IMG/VR virus record: IMGVR_UViG_3300038701_001381
Coordinates: 1 to 28,979 of that record
DNA length: 28,979 nucleotides
Origin: a virus
Reading direction: 5' to 3' (one strand)
Positions 537 to 16,076 of this stretch are shown in pieces. Numbering within the stretch: position 1 is the stretch's first letter; every line of letters starts with the position of its first letter. The translations under genes were made by a program, and so were the position numbers. Below the pieces are notes generated by a model. That model did not search any database. It saw only the letters and a list, made by a program, of their open reading frames with translations, and was not told the DNA's origin.

Positions 537-1132
537 AGGTCTTGGTTGCATGTGAATACTCGGGGATTGTCAGGGACGCCTTTGCGAAACGTGGGCACTT
601 CGCCATGTCTTGCGACTTATTGGAGACAGAAGTACCCGGGTTCCATTGGCAAGGTGATGTTCGAGAGATATTGAATTTTGGTTGGGATTTGATGATAGCT
701 CATCCCGACTGCACATACTTATGCAGCAGCGGTCTGCATTGGAACAAAAGGGACACCACCAGGCAGGGAAAGACCGAAACAGCGTTGGTTTTTGTTAAGT
801 GTCTGATGGACGCTCCGATAGAAAAAATCGCAATAGAGAACCCTGTTGGTTGCATATCCACCCGTATTCGGAAACCAGATCAATACATCCAACCGTATGA
901 ATATGGACACGACGCTAGTAAAAAGACGGGGTTGTGGTTGAAGAATCTACCGTCGCTAACTCCTACTAAATTGGTTGAACCACGAGTGGTGGACGGTAAA
1001 AAGAGGTGGTCTAATCAAACCGATTCTGGTCAAAATAACCTGCCTCCGTCAGAGGATCGGTGGAGAGAGCGAGCGAGAACATACCAAGGGTGGGCTGATG
1101 CAATGGCGGAACAGTGGGGGTCTACATGTTAA
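533..1132 (+). CDS. DNA cytosine-C5 methyltransferase-like protein
   Basis: A 199-residue protein resembling the short phage DNA cytosine methyltransferases. Motif I-like VACEYSG is at 5-11. HPDCTYL at 57-63 takes the place of the catalytic Pro-Cys loop (usually PPC; here Asp precedes Cys60). IENP is at 101-104, matching the ENV/ENP motif. TGLWLKNLPSL at 132-142 follows. No obvious target-recognition domain is present, so it could be a minimal enzyme or a relative with altered activity. It starts at GTG 533 inside the nuclease stop. The helicase ATG at 1126 overlaps its end by seven bases. Its DNA looks AT-richer than the flanking genes, which hints at separate acquisition. Confidence 0.8.
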   Translation: MKVLVACEYSGIVRDAFAKRGHFAMSCDLLETEVPGFHWQGDVREILNFGWDLMIAHPDCTYLCSSGLHWNKRDTTRQGKTETALVFVKCLMDAPIEKIAIENPVGCISTRIRKPDQYIQPYEYGHDASKKTGLWLKNLPSLTPTKLVEPRVVDGKKRWSNQTDSGQNNLPPSEDRWRERARTYQGWADAMAEQWGSTC

Positions 1133-4100
1133 CCCCTGATCAACTCCACGACTACCAAAAGAAGGCGTCCAATTTCCAGTCCACACATCCTAACTCCGCC
1201 ATCTGGGCCGATATGGGGCTGGGCAAGACCGCGATAACCCTCACCAGCATCGCACATCTGCTGAATGCCGGGTTTTTACGGGGAACCCTCATCGTCGCTC
1301 CGATACGGGTGATCCGTCTCGTGTGGCGCCAGGAGGCCCTGAAGTGGTCACACACCCATCACCTCAAGTTCTCCATGGTTGCCGGCACGAAGGACCAGCG
1401 CACAAGGGCGTTGATGCAAAAGGCCGATGTCTACCTCATCAACTACGAGAACCTGAAATGGCTCGCAGATACTCTGACCACATACTATATCAAGAAGGAC
1501 CGCCAGATCCCCTTCAACGGGGTGGTGTGGGATGAATGTTTTCCTGCTGAAGTTCAAGTGTCCACCTCCGATTCTGATATTAGTATTGCGAATGTCAAGA
1601 TCGGTGATATAGTGGAGACACATCTTGGCCCGCGACGTGTAATAAACACCATGCGCAAGAGGGCTTATTGTCTTGTCACCATCACGCTGACATCTGGAGA
1701 AACTATCAGGTGTACACCCAACCATCCCTTTATGGCGAACGGTGCGTGGTGTGTAGCTGGGGAACTTAACGAAGGAGACCTTCTGCATGAAAGAACACAG
1801 CATTCGACGGTTCGGCCAGGGGTCTTGTCAAATATGTGGAAAGGTGTTCTGGAAAAGACGAGAGTCTCAGTTCACTTGTTCCAAAGGGTGCGCAAGTACG
1901 TGGCGAATGCAGCAACCCGAGATCAAGAGTTCAATCACCAATGGTGGAATAAGAGCCCTGGAGAAACATCGGCAGGAGAATGGTGTTTGGAACAAAGGGA
2001 AGTCTTGGTCCGCAGAGATGCGATTGAGAATGAGCGAGTCTCACAAGAAAAGAGACCATTCCCATTTAACTGGTGGGAATGGTACAGGGGGTTCTTGGGC
2101 AGAAAATCTTCTGAGGACGGTTCTGCCAGAACGATTCGAGCAGGAGTATATCCTACGCATCCCGAAGAAGATCGACGGAATACCAACCCACTACAAATTG
2201 GATTTCGGAGATCCGGTAAACCGGGTGGCAATCGAGGTTCAGGGGCAGTCTCATATCACCCACTTGGGGAAGATTCGAGACAAGAAGAAACGGGACTATT
2301 TGAACAGCCAAGGGTGGTCAGTGTTGTACATAACCAATACCCAGGTGGCGTTGATGTTTGGAATCTCCACGTAGAAGAAGCCGAGACGTACTTCGCAAAT
2401 GGCATACTTGTTCACAATTGCTCAAAAATGAAGAACAGCACCACGAAAAGGGTGTCGGCCTTCCGCAAGATTCTCCCTTTCTTCGACTGGACCACCGGAC
2501 TCACCGGCACCCCGGCTGCCAACGGTTACCGGGATCTCCACGGTCAATACCTGGTCCTGGACAAAGGGGTGCGTCTGGGCACCAGTAAGACCGCGTTCAC
2601 GGAGCGATTCTATTACAAGAAGTCAGCCTACAAGCTGGAGGCATTCCCGGATACCGAGGAGACCATCAAATCCCTGATCGGGGATATCACGATGCAGATG
2701 TCAGCGGAGGACTACAATCCTCTCCCGGACCTCATCATGAACGATATCCGGGTGGATCTCCCACCACAGATGCGTCGGAAATATGAGGATCTGGAAAAGG
2801 ACTTCTTCTTCCAACTCGACAACGGGACCGATGTGGAGGTGTTCAACAAGGCATCCTTGACCAATAAATGCATAGCTGAAGGTACTGAGGTTTTAACCAC
2901 TGATGGGTGGATACCTATTGAGCAGTATGATGGCCAAATGGTTTGGGATGGTGAGGAATGGGTAAACACCTCCGGTTTATCTTTCAATGGTTATAAATAT
3001 ACTATAAACTGTCACGATGTTCTTATGACTCCAGATCATAAGGTTCTCACGACAGACGGTTGGAAAGAGGCGAGGGATATTACCGATGGCGAATCCCGCG
3101 AAAGATATGACAGATCAGCAGTTCGATTACCTGACGGTTATTCGGAGAGCTGGGAGCAGAAAGAGGAAGGACGGTTCATCCCTGGCATTATGGGAAGTTC
3201 TCTGCGTTTGCGGGAACAAGAAGGTGATGATTGGTCAGAATCTTCGCAGGAACACCAATCGTCTAAAATCATGTGGGTGCAAACACTCGGAAGCAATAAT
3301 AAAGGGTCGGAAGGAGAAAGGTGTCTCGCACCACAATATGACGGGCACGCGTCCTTATGTTATATGGATCAACATGAAGTCCCGATGCAACAACCCATCA
3401 GACAAAGACTACCCGAGCTATGGGGGAAGGGGTATCACTGTATGCGAAAGGTGGTTAGGGTCATTTGCCGCTTTTTGGGAGGACATGTGCAATGGGTATC
3501 AGGATCACCTGACCATAGAGAGAATGGACAATTCTGCGGGGTACTATCCGGGGAATTGCAGATGGGGAACGATGACTCGTCAAGCGAACAATCGAAGATC
3601 ATCGGTCTACATCGACACCCCGATTGGTCGAATAACCGTAGCTCAAGCAGCAAGAAGGTACGGTCTAAAACCAATAACAATATACAAAAGGTTAGAGAGA
3701 GGGGCGTCAGATACAGAGGCGATAGCACCCGTAGGGTCTACGACATAGTAAACGCTGGTCCCAGACACAGGTACACTGTTAGAGGGACAGACGGTAAACC
3801 ACTGATTGTGCATAATTGCCTTCAGTTCAGCAACGGATTTGTCTACCCCATACCCGGCATCCCGAAGTGGGAACACATTCACGATCTGAAACTGGACGCC
3901 TTGGAGGACATCATCGAGGAGGCGGGCGGGTCCCCGATCCTTTGTGCGTATCAGTACCGGGCAGACGCGGAACGGATCATGGAGCGGTTCAAGAAACTCC
4001 GCCCGATCAACTTGACTGAGTGCAAATCTGAGGCGTCATTGAACAACGCGATGGCCCGGTGGAAGAACGACGACTGTCAACTGATGATAGGGCATCCGGC

Positions 4101-4365
4101 AAGCATGGGCCATGGTGTGGACGGATTGCAGGACAACGGTCACATCCTCGTCTGGTTCGGCCTGAACTGGTCACTGGACCTCTATCTGCAGTTCAATGCC
4201 CGGATACGTAGGCAGGGGCAGGGTGCCCCGGTAATCTGCCATCGGATATTGGTGGAGGACACCCTGGACCAAGCACAGGCATTGGCTCTGGGTGATAAGG
4301 AGGAGAGTCAGACATCTCTCCGCAATGCAATCAAGGCGTATCGTCAAATGAAGGAGAACGGGTGA
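1126..4365 (+). CDS. SNF2/DEAD-type phage helicase interrupted by two inteins
   Basis: A 1079-residue precursor. The extein parts are 1-137, 432-581 and 898-1079, which join into about 469 residues, a usual size for phage SNF2-like helicases. Seen in order: Walker A DMGLGKT at 29-35; Walker B VVWDE at 133-137, interrupted straight after the Glu by intein 1; GLTGTP at 458-463; an extein segment ending LTNK at 581, then intein 2; and the C-terminal helicase lobe with HPASMGHGVDGLQ and the motif VI-like QFNARIRRQGQG. Without the inteins the reading is WDE-CSKMKN and LTNK-CLQFSNG, both normal for the family. ATG 1126 is preferred over the in-frame GTG 1114. Function requires removal of intein 1, because it splits the ATPase motif. 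The family remodels or unwinds DNA; its partner here may be the VRR-NUC nuclease. Confidence 0.93.
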   Translation: MLTPDQLHDYQKKASNFQSTHPNSAIWADMGLGKTAITLTSIAHLLNAGFLRGTLIVAPIRVIRLVWRQEALKWSHTHHLKFSMVAGTKDQRTRALMQKADVYLINYENLKWLADTLTTYYIKKDRQIPFNGVVWDECFPAEVQVSTSDSDISIANVKIGDIVETHLGPRRVINTMRKRAYCLVTITLTSGETIRCTPNHPFMANGAWCVAGELNEGDLLHERTQHSTVRPGVLSNMWKGVLEKTRVSVHLFQRVRKYVANAATRDQEFNHQWWNKSPGETSAGEWCLEQREVLVRRDAIENERVSQEKRPFPFNWWEWYRGFLGRKSSEDGSARTIRAGVYPTHPEEDRRNTNPLQIGFRRSGKPGGNRGSGAVSYHPLGEDSRQEETGLFEQPRVVSVVHNQYPGGVDVWNLHVEEAETYFANGILVHNCSKMKNSTTKRVSAFRKILPFFDWTTGLTGTPAANGYRDLHGQYLVLDKGVRLGTSKTAFTERFYYKKSAYKLEAFPDTEETIKSLIGDITMQMSAEDYNPLPDLIMNDIRVDLPPQMRRKYEDLEKDFFFQLDNGTDVEVFNKASLTNKCIAEGTEVLTTDGWIPIEQYDGQMVWDGEEWVNTSGLSFNGYKYTINCHDVLMTPDHKVLTTDGWKEARDITDGESRERYDRSAVRLPDGYSESWEQKEEGRFIPGIMGSSLRLREQEGDDWSESSQEHQSSKIMWVQTLGSNNKGSEGERCLAPQYDGHASLCYMDQHEVPMQQPIRQRLPELWGKGYHCMRKVVRVICRFLGGHVQWVSGSPDHRENGQFCGVLSGELQMGNDDSSSEQSKIIGLHRHPDWSNNRSSSSKKVRSKTNNNIQKVRERGVRYRGDSTRRVYDIVNAGPRHRYTVRGTDGKPLIVHNCLQFSNGFVYPIPGIPKWEHIHDLKLDALEDIIEEAGGSPILCAYQYRADAERIMERFKKLRPINLTECKSEASLNNAMARWKNDDCQLMIGHPASMGHGVDGLQDNGHILVWFGLNWSLDLYLQFNARIRRQGQGAPVICHRILVEDTLDQAQALALGDKEESQTSLRNAIKAYRQMKENG
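1772..1777 (+). promoter_or_regulatory. Shine-Dalgarno sequence of nested endonuclease gene 1
   Basis: AAGGAG lies 9 bases before the ATG at 1787. In the intein frame the same bases encode the Glu-Gly-Asp of LNEGDLL, a conserved type of turn after block B. The site can therefore serve translation of the nested gene without disturbing the intein. Confidence 0.75.
1787..2374 (+). CDS. Vsr-like (EDxHD) homing endonuclease nested in intein 1, +1 frame
   Basis: A 195-residue protein fully inside intein 1 but read one base forward of the helicase frame. It has a zinc finger with Cys14, Cys17, Cys31 and Cys35 (CQIC..CSKGC), a NUMOD3-like DNA-binding motif NKGKSWSAEMRLRMSESHKK at 69-88, and a C-terminal Vsr-like nuclease with E106, D139 (YKLDF), H156 (EVQGQSH), D165 or D170 (RDKKKRD) and the core strand GWSVLYIT. 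This domain order is typical of mobile endonucleases, including the EDxHD class linked to split phage inteins. It would cut intein-less helicase genes near the insertion site. It starts at ATG 1787 with a good SD and stops at TAG inside the bases that encode block F. It is intact. Expression by internal initiation is inferred. Confidence 0.88.
   Translation: MKEHSIRRFGQGSCQICGKVFWKRRESQFTCSKGCASTWRMQQPEIKSSITNGGIRALEKHRQENGVWNKGKSWSAEMRLRMSESHKKRDHSHLTGGNGTGGSWAENLLRTVLPERFEQEYILRIPKKIDGIPTHYKLDFGDPVNRVAIEVQGQSHITHLGKIRDKKKRDYLNSQGWSVLYITNTQVALMFGIST
3072..3076 (+). promoter_or_regulatory. Shine-Dalgarno-like sequence of nested endonuclease gene 2
   Basis: GAGGG lies 9 bases before the ATG at 3086, with another purine run AAAGAGG just upstream. 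In the intein frame these bases encode WKEARD. The spacing is the same as for the first nested gene. Confidence 0.6.
3086..3748 (+). CDS. HNH-like homing endonuclease nested in intein 2, +1 frame
   Basis: A 220-residue protein fully inside intein 2 and shifted +1 to it. It has a zinc-ribbon-like pair CVCGN (Cys40, Cys42) and SCGC (Cys63, Cys65), then the phage HNH-family signature TRPYVIWINMKSRCNNP, YGGRGITVCERW, IERMDN at 144-149 and NCRW at 157-160 with QANNR at 166-170, and a C-terminal helix-turn-helix of NUMOD1 type, GRITVAQAARRYGL..IYKRL at about 181-203. This domain order is common in phage-borne mobile endonucleases. It starts at ATG 3086 and stops at TAG 3746-3748 within the bases that encode VYDIV of intein block F. 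It is intact and unrelated in family to the first nested enzyme. Target preference for the empty helicase site is inferred. Confidence 0.88.
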   Translation: MANPAKDMTDQQFDYLTVIRRAGSRKRKDGSSLALWEVLCVCGNKKVMIGQNLRRNTNRLKSCGCKHSEAIIKGRKEKGVSHHNMTGTRPYVIWINMKSRCNNPSDKDYPSYGGRGITVCERWLGSFAAFWEDMCNGYQDHLTIERMDNSAGYYPGNCRWGTMTRQANNRRSSVYIDTPIGRITVAQAARRYGLKPITIYKRLERGASDTEAIAPVGSTT

Positions 4366-4499
4366 AACTCCTCATCGGCATCCTGCTGGTGCTGGTTACC
4401 ACAACGGTTAACCGGGACCCTGTTGTACGAGACCCCGGGGAGCAGAAGCCACCCGGTGTCTGTCAGTACTGTGTGATCGTGAAATGGGTTACCGATTAG
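4362..4499 (+). CDS. Small signal-peptide-like protein, 45 residues
   Basis: It starts at GTG 4362, whose last two bases form part of the helicase stop (GTGA). The product has a positively charged start and one hydrophobic segment, MKLLIGILLVLVTTT, followed by a short polar tail with the pair CQYC. It could be a secreted or inner-membrane peptide; there is no lipobox. Function unknown. It is the last rightward gene; its TAG is 11 bases from the stop of the converging late operon, leaving no room for a separate terminator. Confidence 0.55.
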   Translation: MKLLIGILLVLVTTTVNRDPVVRDPGEQKPPGVCQYCVIVKWVTD

Positions 4500-4510
4500 C
4501 GGAAGGGTCC

Positions 4511-4816
4511 TCACCTTGGCGACGGTCCCCCGTTCCTGAATGTGTACCAGATAATGCCTGCCGCTGCGATCACACCGGCTGCCCACTTCACGAACTTCCC
4601 GATGGTGGAGAAGAATGTCACCCCTTTGACCACGGTGTCCCATGCCGCCAGCATGTCTCGGGTGTTGCAATGGATCTCTTTTACCATTTTGGTGTTGCTA
4701 TCCACTGCATCCTTCAGGGTTTCTTGAACTTTCTGTTCGTGCTCTTGGTGCAGAAGGAACTCGCTATGAAATTTTGATAGTTCTTCGTCAGACCATCGGC
4801 GATTTTCGTCAGTCAC
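4511..4816 (-). CDS. Coiled-coil, C-terminally membrane-anchored lysis-cassette protein
   Basis: A 101-residue protein. The N-terminal two thirds (about 7-65) are charged and helical, probably coiled coil. A single hydrophobic segment near the end (FVKWAAGVIAAAGIIWYTF) is followed by a short tail. I chose GTG at 4816, which shares one base with the TAG of the upstream peptidase gene, so the start MTDENRRW is coupled to it. It is the promoter-distal gene of the late operon, next to the holin and endolysin. A second holin, an antiholin or a spanin-like partner are all possible; no family is recognised with certainty. Confidence 0.65.
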   Translation of the reverse strand: MTDENRRWSDEELSKFHSEFLLHQEHEQKVQETLKDAVDSNTKMVKEIHCNTRDMLAAWDTVVKGVTFFSTIGKFVKWAAGVIAAAGIIWYTFRNGGPSPR

Positions 4817-9087: not shown

Positions 9088-11459
9088 ATTACTCTCCTTG
9101 CTTTCAGATCCGTTACCATGGCGTTCAGATATCGCATGATCCCCACGATGTAGTCCGCGTGAGATGTGAGATTGGCAGACGGATAAGAGTCCGAGTTGAA
9201 AGTGTGACGATAGGCCGTACCTGTGGGGCTCGCCCAGCTCGCGCTTGACCCCAACTGGGCAGACGCCCCGGGGAGTAGAATGTTTTGCGAGAACTCAGTC
9301 ACCCCGGTAGTCTTGATCGTAAAAGCCGTAGTCAACCCAGTTTTGACAATCAGATCAGGGTAACTCCCTCCGCCTGTGGCGAATGTCTGGATGACTGCAT
9401 CCGAACTGTTCATCCCCATAATCAACTGGGCACTGGCAGCGTCCATGTCACTGTCATTGGTGCACACTATGGTTGCATTATCGTCCCCGGACCCCGGCCT
9501 GATTGTAAACACGGTAGGTGTACTGGCGGATAGATCCTGGAAGCTGAACCGTTCACTTAGAGTGGCACTGCTCGTATTGGCTCTCAATGTCCGATCTGTT
9601 CCCGGGATGGAGATCGAGTCGTCCGTGTTAATCTTCAACTTCACCGTATCATCAACACGGAATTCCATTGCCCGGGTTGTACCCGTTCCCAACTTCCCTG
9701 AATCAAACTTCACGGCAGAAGCCGTGGTCGCCATGCTCAGATAGTGCCCATTTGCGAAGGCACTGTCGGAGAAAGCAGTATATGACGAGATGTTACTGGT
9801 CCCGTTGGGGATGACGAATACTGTGGTTCCACTGTTTGTCGTCTGATCTTGGAATGCCGCATTCTTCTCGAAGTTGACCACGTCATCACTTACGATTTTA
9901 ATTCTTCGTTCGTTCCCCAACAGACTCAGATTAGCTGATAGGTTCCCGTCAAAGGTGCTCCCGCCACCTTCAGCTGCTTCTCGGTTAACATGAGTCGTGG
10001 GTTCTCTGGCCGGACCCCAGAAACTGCGCATGTTGGTTATTTCAACCGTCCATGGTACAAGGTCGTCATTGAACGCATGCCCTATGGCAATGCCAGAATT
10101 GGTGAGATCCGCGTAGGTGTTATCGTCGCGCACATCCCCCGTATCGCGCTCCAAATCCCACGCACTGTACGTATTATTGTACCGATATAACTGGTATCGA
10201 ATGTAAGAATTCCCGTCGTGAGCCTGCATTGCAGTGCAGATTACTTTATACTGCTCACCATCAAGAAGAGGCGTATCTGTTCGACCTTCCGATCCCGGAA
10301 TGAGATAACGCTGACCAGCAGGAGCACCTAATCCAGAGAAGAAAGTTTCAATCTGAGTAGTAGGATAATTACTAGCTCCTTCCTGTGCACCTGAGACATT
10401 ACCAAAAATCATACCCTGACCGCGAGTATAAGTTTCAATAACATCGGTGTCACATCGTAAGATTAAAGCTAAATGACCAGTAGGATTAGCTGCAAAGTAA
10501 TCATTAAAGGCAATATCGAACTCTACACCTGCCAGCCCGAATCCTGTGTTCCATCCCAATGGTACTGTACTGTCATAGACACTTCTGACAACCAACGGGG
10601 TTGCGTCGGAGAAAGTGGCATCGGCCAACGATGTTCCACCGAACTCGACACCTGTAGTGGAATCCGCGTAGTCGATAAACACACCGTACCCATATCGAAT
10701 AAGCACTGTGCCAGTCCCCGCTGGGAATGCGGTGACAGGGGTGACAACGGCGCCCGACAAGGTGAAATCCACCGTGGGTGTCTGATACACGCCATCCACG
10801 ATGACCTCTACCGCCTCAATGCTGGCCGGTTCGTAGGACAACGTGTAACTGGCCTCTCCACCATCGAATATTTCAGTGGTTCGGACCTGGTCAACCCAAC
10901 CCTGCAAGGTAGCCGACGCTGCAAGTGCTGCTGCCTCTGCTGCCTCTGCTGAATCGGCTACACTGGCAATGTCGATGTTGGTGTTGATCAACCCGTCTTC
11001 GGCTGTATTCCATGCCAACGCCTTCCCGGCGTCAGGGATGGGCAGGGTGACGTTGTTGCCCGTAGTCGATAGTGGGAACCGGATTGTTCTGCTCGCCAGC
11101 TCTGCAAGCTGCTGGCATATCATGGTCAACTTGTCGAGAGCGGTCTCATGGGTCTCTGCCGGGAACGGATCGTTCTCAACATAATCCGTTTCCTGGGTGA
11201 ATTCCATGTCCCGGCTGATGACCAGGGTGTACCCGAATGGTGGGGCTGTCAACGTCGTGAGTGTACCGGCGACCCCGGTGCCCGCCCCCGTTAGGGTGTA
11301 ATGGGTCGTAATCGTCTGAGCGGTCTCCGCACCAGTAGCATCACTCACCAAAGTGACGAGGACATCAGCGTCAGCGATGAATGCGAACCCTGTGGAGAAC
11401 TCCGTGGTGGAGTCATTGCCGGCATACGATACTTTGCTTGTTTCGCTGGAGACTGTCAT
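9084..11459 (-). CDS. Major tail fibre protein, T7-like N-terminal domain
   Basis: A 791-residue protein. The N-terminal part (about 1-150) follows the T7-tail-fibre attachment-domain pattern: GNDSTTEFSTGFAF, VLVTLV, HYTLTG, GYTLVISRDMEFTQETDY, ETALDKLTMICQQLAE. An Ala-rich probable coiled coil (EAAEAAALAASATLQGWVDQV) follows, then a repeat of the N-domain type, a beta-rich region at about 270-480 that could be a lectin-like fold, a fibre shaft, and a C-terminal helix (YIVGIMRYLNAMVTDLKARR). It should attach to the tail tube and make primary host contact. The ATG overlaps the upstream stop (ATGA). Confidence 0.87.
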   Translation of the reverse strand: MTVSSETSKVSYAGNDSTTEFSTGFAFIADADVLVTLVSDATGAETAQTITTHYTLTGAGTGVAGTLTTLTAPPFGYTLVISRDMEFTQETDYVENDPFPAETHETALDKLTMICQQLAELASRTIRFPLSTTGNNVTLPIPDAGKALAWNTAEDGLINTNIDIASVADSAEAAEAAALAASATLQGWVDQVRTTEIFDGGEASYTLSYEPASIEAVEVIVDGVYQTPTVDFTLSGAVVTPVTAFPAGTGTVLIRYGYGVFIDYADSTTGVEFGGTSLADATFSDATPLVVRSVYDSTVPLGWNTGFGLAGVEFDIAFNDYFAANPTGHLALILRCDTDVIETYTRGQGMIFGNVSGAQEGASNYPTTQIETFFSGLGAPAGQRYLIPGSEGRTDTPLLDGEQYKVICTAMQAHDGNSYIRYQLYRYNNTYSAWDLERDTGDVRDDNTYADLTNSGIAIGHAFNDDLVPWTVEITNMRSFWGPAREPTTHVNREAAEGGGSTFDGNLSANLSLLGNERRIKIVSDDVVNFEKNAAFQDQTTNSGTTVFVIPNGTSNISSYTAFSDSAFANGHYLSMATTASAVKFDSGKLGTGTTRAMEFRVDDTVKLKINTDDSISIPGTDRTLRANTSSATLSERFSFQDLSASTPTVFTIRPGSGDDNATIVCTNDSDMDAASAQLIMGMNSSDAVIQTFATGGGSYPDLIVKTGLTTAFTIKTTGVTEFSQNILLPGASAQLGSSASWASPTGTAYRHTFNSDSYPSANLTSHADYIVGIMRYLNAMVTDLKARRVI

Positions 11460-14245
11460 TGATCGTCCTCGGTCGCATCCTTGATGGAGATTATACCACT
11501 GGTTACCAGGTATGAGTGCATTTGTGCACCCAGTTTGATCCGCTGTGCCTGCGTTGTCGGTTGCGTCAACAGCATACGGGCCAGATCCTTATCCAAGGAC
11601 GCCTGCATCAGAATCTCACGCACTTTCTCTGCTGGCACTTTCTTGAATACTGATTGACCGAACCTGGAACCTGCGCCGGCAACAAGGATGCCGTGACCCT
11701 GGGCGCTACCGCCAAACAGCTTTGTGGCGCCCACTGCACCAGTCACCCTAGACATCAGGTCTACCACCATGTCGTAAGGGCTCTCGATGTCGTCAACAGC
11801 CATACCGGGTCGGAATGTAGACTCTATTCGTGCTGCCTCCAAAAGCAGTTTTTTACTCCGATCAAGATCTCCGGAGTCCATTGCTCCGGTTTTTACCATA
11901 AGCTCAGCGAGACTAGGCTGTCCTTCTCGGATTGGGTCGAACATGATTTTGCTGAACTTGCTTAACGACAATCCTTGCTGCCCGGTGGTAGCCGAGGAAA
12001 CAGCGTAATCGTAGACCGCCGCCTTTAAACCGTCCAATGAGTCGTCATTCTTTCCAGCAAGCCTCACCAACCCGGACATCGACTTGATCGGATCTTTACT
12101 CTTGATTGCGTTCCTAACCGCATCAACCGGGTGTTCAAACTCCAACACCTTAGCGAAGGCTGCCTTTTGGGAAACCAGCTTGTTTACATTATTGACCGAG
12201 TTTTCCAGGTCAGTGAGTGCTCTGGTAGACGACACCGCCCGCTCCAAGTCGGCCTTTGCCTCCGGGAACCGTTTCAGTAATTCCGAATTGTTCCGCATGA
12301 AATCAGACAGCTTCTTCTGACTCAGTTTACCGGTCGCAGAATCAATGGACTCCGACGCCATGATTCGGATCATCCGTTCTTGGGAGTCGATCATGGTGTC
12401 GAAGGTCTGCAACGATTCGGCACTCTCCCGGTTCATGCTCTTCAGGAAGGTGGTGGCGTCTTCCAACTCTCTCATCTTTAGCGCGGCAGCTTCTCTTCCC
12501 CCGGACATAGCCTTCCGTAGCATGAGTTCTGGAGAAATCGTCTGACCGTATGCGGAGTCAGCTAACGCCTTCCCAACAAAAGACCTCTTGAACGTCTCAT
12601 TGAGTGCCCGAGAAAAGAATCGCGCCTCATCATAGGATTCCGCCACGTTCGGCATCCCCGGAAGATTGGGAATAGTTATCGTTTTGAACTTGGAGTCAAG
12701 ATCATCCAGCACCGAATCTGCAACGATACCCAGACGCCTGGCGACGGATGGTTTGGCGTTGGCCCCCTTCAAGGCGTCCCGTTGCAGTTCCAGAACCCTA
12801 CTCCGAAACAGGATCATCTCTCCAGTGGTCAGTGGGGTCTTATCCTGGATCACTCTCTTGGCGAAAGTCAGGATCTCCGTCATCCCTTCGATACTGGACA
12901 GCTTGGTGGTGGACGGCAATTCCGCTTTAAGGGAACGTAGGGTTTCTACGAAATTGTCACCGGTCATCTGCATGTCTTTGGGGATTCGACCCCACAGTTC
13001 GGATTCCACTTTCCGGGATTCACGCAGAGCGGTGCCTACGGCTTCCTGGGCCTTGGTGCTGATATCAGCAACGGCGTCCGGGGCATCCCGCGTGATCCTC
13101 CGTGCTGCTTCGAGTGCTTCCCCTTCTGCCGCCTGAAGTCGGGAAGACAACACCATAGAGAAGTATTGCTTCTTCAACCTCGCAGCCTCTTTCAGTGCAG
13201 CAGGGTCTCCTATATTGTGCAGCACTCCGATCATGTCTTTCACGGAGTCCAGACCTTCGGTTGCAAGCCTACCTGTCTCCGCTCCGAAGTTGGCGCTGTA
13301 TTCCCCCAATTTCTTCTGCATCGCAGCAAGAGAAGGGGAGCCCGTGAGTTGGGCTATAGTCTGATTGGTGCCAGTCAGATTGGATTCCTTCAACATCCGT
13401 GCCAGCATGACCGGATCTTCGCCCGCGTCCGTCACAATCTGCTGCAGGAGTCGGGCAGCCTCATTTTGCCTGGACGCAGGAGACATGACCTGTGATACTC
13501 TCGTCCACGTCTGCTTCGCCAGTCTCCCACTGGTGGCCAGCAGCCGGGATGGGTTGAATAGACCCCCCACAACCTCGGCACCAAGACGAACGCCTCCTTC
13601 ACCGGGAGCCAACTCTTCCGCAACTGCACCACCAAGACCCGCGCCACCAGCAGAAGCTACTTCGGCGCCCATGAACGCTTTCGGAGAGCTTCGGATCGTC
13701 TCCAACATGGAGTTGGTCCACTTTCCTACCAGTGTTTTGCCCTCAAACGACGCACCTCTTAGTGCAGCATTCATCGTCATGGTTGTTGGAACAGCAGACC
13801 CGAAGAATACTTCTCCGGCAATCCCTGCAGGTCTCAAATCGGAGGGCAGATCATCCACAGAACCAACCGCAAAGGGAGTATCGGTTCCGGGGATGTTGGT
13901 TTCGGACAGCGTTTCTCTGCCACGAGTACCCACTTCCTGCCCGGCAAAGGCACCTATGAGTCCACCACCGATTCCCCCCAGAGCGGTTAGTGCGGGAACA
14001 CCTGTCTGCGCCCCCGCCTGCATCCCGACACGGGCACCCATTACCGCGCCACCGAGCAGTGATCCACTCTGGACCATCTCCCCTGCACCTGCCTGGCCTG
14101 CCGCTCCCAACTGTTCTGCAGCGGTCGGCCCTTGGTCTACGGGTTCCAGCATAGAATCGAAATCATCTGAGGGAGGAGCACTGGTCCCGTCAACCGGGAT
14201 AAGTGCCTTGTCGAAATCCTCAAGTGATTGGTTATTCTGCGGCAT
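11456..14245 (-). CDS. Large internal virion (ejection-type) protein
   Basis: A 929-residue protein with no enzymatic motif seen. After an acidic N-terminus (MPQNNQSLEDFDKAL) comes a Gly/Ala-rich hydrophobic stretch at about 60-115 (LLGGAVMGARVGMQAG, ALGGIGGGLIGAFAG) that could insert into membrane, then a very long helical, coiled-coil-rich body. This suits the podovirus ejectosome proteins that leave the capsid and form a channel in the host envelope (T7 gp15/gp16 position). I chose ATG 14245, with AGAGAGG upstream; it overlaps the previous gene by 14 bases. A longer frame to 14281 lies within that gene. Confidence 0.75.
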   Translation of the reverse strand: MPQNNQSLEDFDKALIPVDGTSAPPSDDFDSMLEPVDQGPTAAEQLGAAGQAGAGEMVQSGSLLGGAVMGARVGMQAGAQTGVPALTALGGIGGGLIGAFAGQEVGTRGRETLSETNIPGTDTPFAVGSVDDLPSDLRPAGIAGEVFFGSAVPTTMTMNAALRGASFEGKTLVGKWTNSMLETIRSSPKAFMGAEVASAGGAGLGGAVAEELAPGEGGVRLGAEVVGGLFNPSRLLATSGRLAKQTWTRVSQVMSPASRQNEAARLLQQIVTDAGEDPVMLARMLKESNLTGTNQTIAQLTGSPSLAAMQKKLGEYSANFGAETGRLATEGLDSVKDMIGVLHNIGDPAALKEAARLKKQYFSMVLSSRLQAAEGEALEAARRITRDAPDAVADISTKAQEAVGTALRESRKVESELWGRIPKDMQMTGDNFVETLRSLKAELPSTTKLSSIEGMTEILTFAKRVIQDKTPLTTGEMILFRSRVLELQRDALKGANAKPSVARRLGIVADSVLDDLDSKFKTITIPNLPGMPNVAESYDEARFFSRALNETFKRSFVGKALADSAYGQTISPELMLRKAMSGGREAAALKMRELEDATTFLKSMNRESAESLQTFDTMIDSQERMIRIMASESIDSATGKLSQKKLSDFMRNNSELLKRFPEAKADLERAVSSTRALTDLENSVNNVNKLVSQKAAFAKVLEFEHPVDAVRNAIKSKDPIKSMSGLVRLAGKNDDSLDGLKAAVYDYAVSSATTGQQGLSLSKFSKIMFDPIREGQPSLAELMVKTGAMDSGDLDRSKKLLLEAARIESTFRPGMAVDDIESPYDMVVDLMSRVTGAVGATKLFGGSAQGHGILVAGAGSRFGQSVFKKVPAEKVREILMQASLDKDLARMLLTQPTTQAQRIKLGAQMHSYLVTSGIISIKDATEDDQ

Positions 14246-16076
14246 TCTGACCTCTCTCCGGGATACGGTATTCCTTACCATTGGGTCCGATAACGATTGA
14301 TCCTGGTGGATATGACAGTGCCTCGTCCACGGTCTTCACTCGTGGAGGGACCCCAACTCTCTCACGGAACTGTTGTATTCGTATCGCAGCCCGTAAATTC
14401 TGCTTCCTAAACTCGGCGTCGGCTCTCATATCGGTACTGTTCTTCATCGCGTCGTTGTACAGACGCTCCAGGTCGATGTCTCTTGCCAGTAACCGTTGCT
14501 TGTATGCTGTGGGATTGTCCATGAGAGACGGTTCGATTGTTACAACTTCCTCAATCCTCTCCATCTCACCTACGGCAAACCGCGGATTCTGCTGCAATGA
14601 TGTGACCAACTGTCTCTGGAGAGTTGCAATCTGCTCTCTAGCCAGCACCACTTGTCTCGATCCCACCACCTCCCCTAAAGCACCACCTACTCCGGGAATT
14701 CTTCCAACGAATTCACGGGCAGCGGGTATCGGTCCGGTAACGTCTCCCGCTCCTGCAGATTGCCATACAGAAGGCCCCTCGTATGTATTTTCCCCACTCA
14801 GATCAAGGAATTTGTCTGTCGCAACTTCGGGGGTCTGCTCCGGGGTCTCCCCTGTCGCCACTTGACCACCGGGGATAGGAATACCAGCACGACGGGCAGC
14901 CTCCAGAATGTGCCTGGCCGGGGTTCTGCGAATCGTCTGGATATCGCCCGTCTGGGGGTCTTTATACTGCTGGGGCTTCATGTACTCATTCAGCGCCGAC
15001 TCGAACATCGTCACTTCACGTTCATCTGCCAAGCCATACGCCACAGCATTTGCAGAATCATTGAGAATGTTCAGCGATTGTCCAGTGATGCCCCGACCGA
15101 AGTCTGGCTGAGAGGATTCCAGCCCGATAATGTTCTGCCTCTCGGACTCATTCAACGGGCGCCCGAGTACCGCTTCAGCGTCCGCCACCTTGTCAGCAAA
15201 GGTAGTCGCCCCTTCTTTCGGTGCAAGCCCAGCCAATCGTAAACGTTGTTCCGGCGTGATCTGATCCACAGAGACCCCAAGAATCTGAGCAGTCTCCTGG
15301 AGCTTCTGGAGACCTTTATTCGATTCAATCTCATTCTCCCGGCGTTTCTTCACCACTTGGAGTTTAAGGGAACGCATGTCTGCCGCTGGAAGAGACTCCA
15401 CGGCGACCTTTGATGTAAGCACCTGCTCTACTTGATCAAGATCCCCCTGAATCATCAGGGTCTGGACACCAGATTTCAGGATTTCCCCTCTACCAGTGAT
15501 CCTGTGCGCTGTCTGCTCCTCCTCGGTGAGGGCTCCGGACATTTGGTCCACTTCGGCATCCCATGACGCCATGTGTTCGAGAATCATGTCCGGTGACTTG
15601 GCAGATGTATCAGCCAGTGTTTTTCTTACCGACGAGATGTGGTTATTGACCAACGCCTTCTGGGACTCAATGGCGGTCTTGGATGCAATCCCCGCGTGGC
15701 TCCCCCTCGACTGTTCCAGCATCGCATTCAGTTGTAAACGACTATCTTCACTCCCACCATGGCCCTGCAGAAGTTCATCCCGTTTTTCCGCCAATGCCTC
15801 TCCGTAAGAGGATAGGACACTGGGGTCGGTAAAGTCCTGTTCTGCCTGCATCTGGGTCAGTTGATCCCGTGCAAACGTATCGTACTCATTGAGAGCCCGA
15901 ACCCGCTGGATCGTATCAAGTCGGCTCTGCTTCTTCTGCTGTACCTGCTGGATCTGATTCACCGCGTTTGCCATATCACCAAACGGGTTAGCCCCAAAGT
16001 CTTCGGCGGTAGCCCGGCGAGTGTTGATCCCGCCTTGGGCTGTAGTCTGCTGCGTGTATTCTCTGATTTTTGGCAT
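14232..16076 (-). CDS. Internal virion protein, helical
   Basis: A 614-residue protein. The N-terminal half is glutamine- and charge-rich helix (NQIQQVQQKKQSRLDTIQRVRAL; AEQDFTDPSVLSSYGEALAEKRDELLQG), and the C-terminal region ends in a small beta segment (PPGSIVIGPNGKEYRIPERGQ). The position between a gp14-like protein and the large internal protein points to an ejection-complex subunit like T7 gp15. I see no lytic transglycosylase motif. The ATG shares one base with the upstream TGA. Confidence 0.72.
   Translation of the reverse strand: MPKIREYTQQTTAQGGINTRRATAEDFGANPFGDMANAVNQIQQVQQKKQSRLDTIQRVRALNEYDTFARDQLTQMQAEQDFTDPSVLSSYGEALAEKRDELLQGHGGSEDSRLQLNAMLEQSRGSHAGIASKTAIESQKALVNNHISSVRKTLADTSAKSPDMILEHMASWDAEVDQMSGALTEEEQTAHRITGRGEILKSGVQTLMIQGDLDQVEQVLTSKVAVESLPAADMRSLKLQVVKKRRENEIESNKGLQKLQETAQILGVSVDQITPEQRLRLAGLAPKEGATTFADKVADAEAVLGRPLNESERQNIIGLESSQPDFGRGITGQSLNILNDSANAVAYGLADEREVTMFESALNEYMKPQQYKDPQTGDIQTIRRTPARHILEAARRAGIPIPGGQVATGETPEQTPEVATDKFLDLSGENTYEGPSVWQSAGAGDVTGPIPAAREFVGRIPGVGGALGEVVGSRQVVLAREQIATLQRQLVTSLQQNPRFAVGEMERIEEVVTIEPSLMDNPTAYKQRLLARDIDLERLYNDAMKNSTDMRADAEFRKQNLRAAIRIQQFRERVGVPPRVKTVDEALSYPPGSIVIGPNGKEYRIPERGQNAAE

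Follow-up and report, generated by a model that had tools for sequence, protein, structure and literature searches.

Inteins have been taken either to bear their homing endonuclease within the intein frame or to consist of two halves that flank it. The split arrangement was reportedly described by Dassa et al. in 2009 as fractured genes, in which split inteins are said to have a free-standing Vsr-like homing endonuclease between their halves. For the ShiLan domain, an insertion in a phage DNA methylase, an out-of-frame HNH endonuclease within an open host frame was reported (Arsenault, Gosselin, Gogarten 2025, PMC11855218). This insertion lacks an intein splicing domain, would according to its authors be retained in the protein and shows a mobile-like distribution; its HNH gene lies in the 'third' frame, starts with GTG 18 bp in, has no RBS that could be found and was seen in one host-gene type (PMC11855218). 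Applejack is a case similar to ShiLan (PMC12613952). Here, a phage helicase gene with two inteins was analysed, each of which contains an endonuclease gene in the +1 frame while the helicase frame remains open. The gene is located on IMG/VR record IMGVR_UViG_3300038701_001381, a single metagenome-derived record that was used in its whole length of 28,979 nucleotides and is referred to as the window.

The coordinates of the features are listed in Table 1. The helicase frame yields 1079 codons from the ATG at 1126, with a GTG at 1114 as alternative upstream start. In profile scans it matched the DNA helicase family phrog_62 (E=2.7e-114) and an SNF2 domain, as well as the intein models PF14890 (in two stretches), TIGR01445 and TIGR01443. 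In intein 1 C1, the block-B HPF, block F and the terminal HN|C are all present. When intein 2 was scanned on its own PF14890 stayed below the cut-off; an alignment of 14 loci nevertheless covers its blocks A, B, F and G. After removal of both inteins (1537-2418 and 2869-3816), the remaining protein was collinear with the helicase of phage DSL-LC05, which is uninterrupted. By their splicing motifs, their nucleophiles and the collinear host protein obtained upon removal, both elements are inteins that are predicted to splice, and a previous sequence-only reading of this DNA, according to which one open frame of 1079 codons contains two complete inteins, was confirmed by the splicing models and by this collinearity.

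Table 1. Features of the helicase locus in the window (positions in nucleotides; products and functions as predicted).
Feature	Position	Strand	Remarks
Phage SNF2/SF2-type DNA helicase precursor, 1079 aa	1126..4365	+	open frame; predicted spliced extein ~470 aa
Intein 1, 294 aa	1537..2418	+	helicase motif II, between DE and C (WDE|CSKMKN)
Shine-Dalgarno-like GAAGGAGA	1772..1780	+	well spaced ahead of ATG 1787; dG -8.8
Nested Vsr-like (EDxHD/DUF559) endonuclease, 195 aa	1787..2374	+	+1 frame; zinc-finger-like N-terminus
Intein 2, 316 aa	2869..3816	+	helicase C-domain, LTNK|CLQFSNG
Purine-rich SD-like AGAGGCGAGGG	3062..3084	+	ahead of ATG 3086
Nested HNH endonuclease, 220 aa	3086..3748	+	+1 frame in intein 2

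In the window the helicase is preceded by a VRR-NUC-like nuclease (phrog_93) and a putative DNA methyltransferase (phrog_757) at 219-1132; in DSL-LC05 a nuclease is located immediately before the helicase. A podovirus-like structural module comprising terminase, head-tail adaptor, major head, tail tubular and tail fibre proteins occupies 4816-27000 on the minus strand, against the direction of the replication genes. For two large proteins (11456-14281 and 14232-16076) no PHROG match was obtained.

The AlphaFold (AF2) model of intein 1 in the host frame reached pLDDT values of 97-98 at residues 1-80 and 261-294 and of about 40 over most of the dual-coded stretch. The top Foldseek match of this model was the gp41-1 intein (6qaz), which we take to belong to the fractured-gene set of Dassa et al. 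2009, and a HINT fold was recovered, a result that refers to intein 1 only. It is very unlikely that the insert fails to splice and is tolerated as a loop of the helicase, as proposed for ShiLan. That domain has the same open host frame and out-of-frame HNH and lacks a splicing domain (PMC11855218), whereas in the present case the HINT domain is conserved together with all nucleophiles, and the insertion interrupts helicase motif II.

The same sites were compared among relatives of the helicase: DSL-LC05 has neither intein, L001 intein 1 only, and L092 and L013 both (loci are designated by L and a number). As in the window, the L012/L092 contig and L013 combine the Vsr-like and the HNH kind in one gene. 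The intein-less helicase of DSL-LC05 (L009) has Ile at the +1 site of intein 1 (DEISK) and Cys at the site of intein 2 (NKCLQF), and L001 has Leu at the +1 site of intein 2. The +1 Cys of the inteins may be co-converted during homing.

Both nested open reading frames occupy the interval between blocks B and F of their intein at +1 to the host frame, and the stop codon of the Vsr-like gene falls within block F. The lengths, the register and the assignment to a Vsr-like and an HNH family, as given in the sequence-only reading, were borne out, the families by profile matches and, for the first protein, by a Vsr/I-Bth0305I fold. The Vsr-like protein matched DUF559 (E=1e-5) and, in profile searches, 3hrl and 3r3p (I-Bth0305I). 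Its AlphaFold model (mean pLDDT 86.6) was most similar in Foldseek to 3r3p (probability 1.00, E 9.5e-3), and Vsr itself (1vsr) was matched with a probability of 0.93; these Foldseek E-values do not go below 9.5e-3 and are weak, so that sequence and structure are both needed to assign the fold. On this joint basis the product of 1787-2374 is classified as a Vsr-like/EDxHD endonuclease with a predicted Vsr-like catalytic core. The product of 3086-3748 is an HNH protein as judged by its match to phrog_374 (E=1.6e-58), and its similarity to I-HmuI (1u3e) was weak (E=0.013).

Within the Vsr-like family the catalytic residues D139, E150 and H156 were found in 132, 131 and 132 of 132 proteins, respectively, and all three are intact in the window protein. 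Position 152 is Asp in 130 of 132 relatives and Gln only in the window, L012 and L001. Some PD-(D/E)XK enzymes, e.g. BglII, have Gln at that position. Because Gln replaces the nearly invariant Asp152, it is uncertain whether the window protein cuts DNA, as the analogy with BglII would allow.

The nested layout proved not to be restricted to the window. By tblastn of phage records, the Vsr-like protein was found inside helicase-annotated genes of Vibrio phage CP-T1, Corynebacterium phage phi673, Pseudomonas phage MR14 and numerous Vibrio phages. The HNH protein was located within the DNA polymerase genes of Caulobacter phages GB2A, RW, RLK and KcrB and of Shewanella phage SFCi1. In cultured phages the endonuclease was at +1 in every case checked, and the nested gene was unannotated in the phage records examined (among the Caulobacter phages: GB2A). 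When viral contigs and bacterial genomes were scanned with profiles, 133 unique Vsr-like loci were obtained, for which the register was assayed by searching HMMs of the two intein halves in all forward frames. Expressed as shares of loci gathered via their endonucleases and not of all inteins, 116 of the 133 combined an unbroken host frame with intein N and C motifs flanking the endonuclease, which lay at +1 to either motif. In four further loci the host frame was open and one side lay off the contig, giving 120 of 133 at +1 in an unbroken frame, and the remainder consisted of six fractured loci, six free-standing genes without intein and the ambiguous L077. An endonuclease at offset 0 or +2 to the intein was found in none of the 133 loci. 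The in-frame fusion of canonical large inteins was thus rejected for this family, including the homologues fused in frame that the sequence-only reading had considered, and both window genes are at +1.

The nested Vsr-like loci include loci from bacterial MAGs (L176, L177 and L179), and their exteins are SF2 helicases, clamp loaders, a terminase and methyltransferase/DarB-like proteins; nested HNH inteins reside in DNA polymerase A and helicases. All of 103 complete nested inteins have Cys as residue 1, they end with HN, SN or KN, and their +1 residue is Cys or Ser. A single-protein HNH scan of viral contigs and a search of the L046 protein against genome contigs gave no match. In L094, two nested HNH inteins (872-1558 and 3986-4675) are located in two genes of one phage, one belonging to the polymerase-type and one to the helicase-type clade. 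Nesting at +1 inside an intein is the rule for the Vsr-like endonuclease family and is not unique to the window. Assembly or sequencing frameshifts that turned an intein with an in-frame endonuclease into two separate frames, an error already considered in the sequence-only reading, would have to occur as paired, compensating errors at every locus, which is implausible. Such an artefact is refuted because the layout recurs in cultured phages and ~130 independent contigs, and we give it practically no weight. The search of phages and metagenomes that had been proposed on the basis of the sequence was hence positive, with CP-T1, phi673, GB2A and ~130 contigs as further cases.

The start regions of the nested genes were analysed with regard to separate translation. 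The site GAAGGAGA encodes the NEGD motif of intein 1 in the intein frame. The ATG at 3086 is preceded by GAGGCGAGGG, a weak SD with a dG of -6.5. For comparison, about 3% of unrelated ATGs reach a dG of -8 and about 10% reach -6. Family-wide, 46% of nested starts had an SD dG at or below -6 versus 29% of matched ATG numbers. As this signal is just moderate and many relatives are without a strong SD, conservation of the SD site was dismissed as a proof of initiation. Programmed +1 ribosomal frameshifting, which would generate a fusion of N-extein, N-intein and endonuclease with no need for internal initiation, agrees with the lack of a strong SD in many family members and with the endonuclease frame being open for 30-57 bases upstream of each ATG. 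It is nevertheless unlikely: the spacing of SD and ATG in the window is good (dG -8.8 and -6.5), similarity to zinc-finger or HNH domains begins at the ATG, and the same protein is encoded by an ordinary gene in the free-standing L061, L175 and L228. Internal initiation at the two ATGs would account for these observations.

The universal +1 register may be explained by the genetic code. At +1, each host codon is composed of the third base of one endonuclease codon and the first two bases of the next, so that a host stop always needs a third-position T, which is always replaceable by C. At +2, a TGA is unavoidable wherever the codon after Met begins with A. For 85 nested proteins there were no unavoidable host stops at +1 and a mean of 1.6 per protein at +2, with five at +2 for the window HNH protein. 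We infer that this escape from stops is the reason why the register is +1 throughout. For ShiLan a +2 register is read from the published coordinates, and +2 is thus possible there.

Synonymous shuffling of the window endonuclease codons produced on average 7.3 (Vsr-like) and 10.5 (HNH) host-frame stops, and none of 300 shuffles was stop-free for either gene. The sequence-only reading had estimated the chance of a stop-free frame by (61/64)^n; the improbability as such was upheld by the shuffles, and the formula is crude because one frame is coding. In the window, T was used at 0 of 32 (Vsr-like) and 0 of 39 (HNH) codons where a synonymous T would stop the host frame, with a T use of 38% and 37% elsewhere. 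Over 85 unique nested genes, 0 host-frame stops were observed versus ~582 expected from synonymous shuffling (~6.8 per gene). The mean for 65 HNH relatives that are not nested was 17 stops in the corresponding frame. Risk sites were defined as pyrimidine-ending endonuclease codons before AAN, AGN or GAN, where T creates a host stop. T occurred at 0 of 1164 such sites in nested genes versus 1143 of 2143 in non-nested relatives, and at 53.5% elsewhere in nested genes. Since T is absent at risk sites when the gene is nested and common when it is not, the open host frame is selected.

Substitutions at endonuclease codon positions 1/2/3 numbered 347/325/747 (pooled, 11 pairs), and the third-position bias was also present over all pairs. 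Between the window and L092, the host-frame linkers were 33% and 32% identical, versus 52-78% for the splicing parts, 60-62% for the exteins and 71% and 53% for the endonucleases. The linker identity was 0.9-3.3 sd above the synonymous-redraw expectation; at values so near this expectation, selection on the host-frame linker as a protein would be little or none and was discarded. The third-position substitutions and the linker identity together indicate that the endonuclease is the selected protein and that the linker is merely kept open. The proposal that the overlap is selected therefore holds for the open host frame, with 0 of 1164 T, while dual coding is mostly one-sided, the linker being just stop-free. 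As 115 of the 116 nested ORFs extend into the motif of block F, the sequences indicate a true double constraint where the endonuclease tail enters block F.

By their profile matches and, for the Vsr-like protein, its fold, both nested endonucleases are regarded as real proteins and not merely open frames. Decaying remnants or chance open frames without a product seem highly improbable: decayed copies do exist (L017 and L174), but the catalytic D139, E150 and H156 are conserved, substitutions are third-position-biased and non-neutral, and full-length frames are found in ~130 loci.

In the six fractured loci (L046, L056, L172, L227, L236 and L247) the host gene is broken, and the stretch under the endonuclease contains 12-35 stops. 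The two intein halves share a register; the endonuclease lies at +1 to each of them and overlaps their ends. These loci form one clade (support 98) within the nested genes, with the nested L224 as nearest relative (89). In five of the six an ATG occurs at a common position of the C-half (KRMR); L224 does not have it. The simplest reading of these sequences is that a nested intein gained a start for its C-half, that stop avoidance was then relaxed and that a split intein resulted. The direction from nested to fractured rests on a tree that is sensitive to sampling, with one transition seen, and could be shaken. The window itself is a single open frame and not a fractured gene, and its Vsr-like endonuclease is homologous to those of the six fractured loci. 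The contrast with fractured genes drawn in the sequence-only reading therefore stands for the unbroken frame of the window, but the fractured relatives share the register and appear derived.

Nested HNH genes group in one clade (support 82) that lies among non-nested genes, and L232 is separate, joining the non-nested L140 (95); the host of L232 has a helicase intein (DE|CLPTGT...VHN|S). Together with the unrelated Vsr-like family, this clade, whose support of 82 is modest, and L232 point to at least three origins. The view that two unrelated endonucleases converged on the same layout was thus corroborated and extended by a separate HNH origin in L232.

Free-standing Vsr-like genes (L061 3355-3996, L175 3462-4073, L228 3444-4088 and L067 1-435) overlap the start of an intein-less SF2 helicase, the gene type invaded elsewhere. 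In L017 (4001-4576) the endonuclease frame contains a stop while the host intein frame is still open, and in L174 (2678-3078) a shortened endonuclease lies between split helicase halves and the register is lost; decay in these two loci fits a homing cycle of gain and loss. L022 (3581-4564) carries an additional intein in the same ORF, with a 235-aa linker and a +1 frame of 109 aa, which is possibly a decayed nested gene.

Each element is thus very probably an intein with a homing endonuclease encoded as a separate gene, placed at +1 over the loop that connects the two parts of the splicing domain. Ribosomes from the helicase start would read through, with the nested gene appearing as a long, unstructured, stop-free linker, and intein and linker would splice out to give a working helicase. 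A second ribosome would start at the internal ATG (1787 or 3086), served by SD-like sites at the end of the intein N-terminal half, and produce the free endonuclease. This protein probably cuts intein-less alleles, so that the whole intein would be copied by homing, as the distribution suggests. Selection would keep the splicing residues, the endonuclease protein and the absence of third-position T before AAN, AGN or GAN, and an own start codon of the C-half would release the T constraint and lead to a split-intein 'fractured gene'.

Such inteins would represent a third solution, in which the endonuclease is expressed separately and the host gene remains whole. This would explain inteins with unrecognisable linkers, would mean that annotated phage helicases hide unannotated nucleases, and would give split inteins a specific route of origin that lends itself to testing. 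The system would also be a natural experiment on overlapping genes, with the free-standing relatives as control and a +1-over-+2 coding rule that can be stated exactly. We consider it rather probable, with less confidence than for the explanation of the individual element, that +1-nested inteins are a distinct, widespread and unrecognised class with at least three origins and a precursor of some split inteins.

The sequence-only reading had named no described system of this kind. No description of the intein form was found in the open-access literature searched, and an actinobacteriophage-intein preprint ('non-canonical architecture') may hold related cases; ShiLan is a precedent, and the layout is present in ~130 other viral and bacterial sequences. 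The overlap principle therefore has a published precedent, while the intein form appears to be unrecognised and recurrent. Like ShiLan, the window has an out-of-frame endonuclease, an open host frame and a mobile-like distribution; unlike ShiLan, the elements are true inteins, as judged by their motifs, at +1, with SD-like sites, many exteins and two endonuclease families. With the fractured genes reportedly described in 2009, the system shares an endonuclease that is Vsr-like, off the intein polypeptide and between its halves, with homology judged on the six fractured loci found here, whereas the host gene is one unbroken frame here and broken in two there. I-Bth0305I (3r3p, EDxHD) and I-HmuI (1u3e, HNH) resemble the nested proteins in catalytic fold or sequence; they are intron-encoded, whereas the window proteins lie inside inteins in another frame. 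As in canonical large inteins such as PI-SceI, the endonuclease is located between blocks B and F of a mobility element, but instead of being fused in frame and excised with the intein, it is encoded here by a separate out-of-frame gene.
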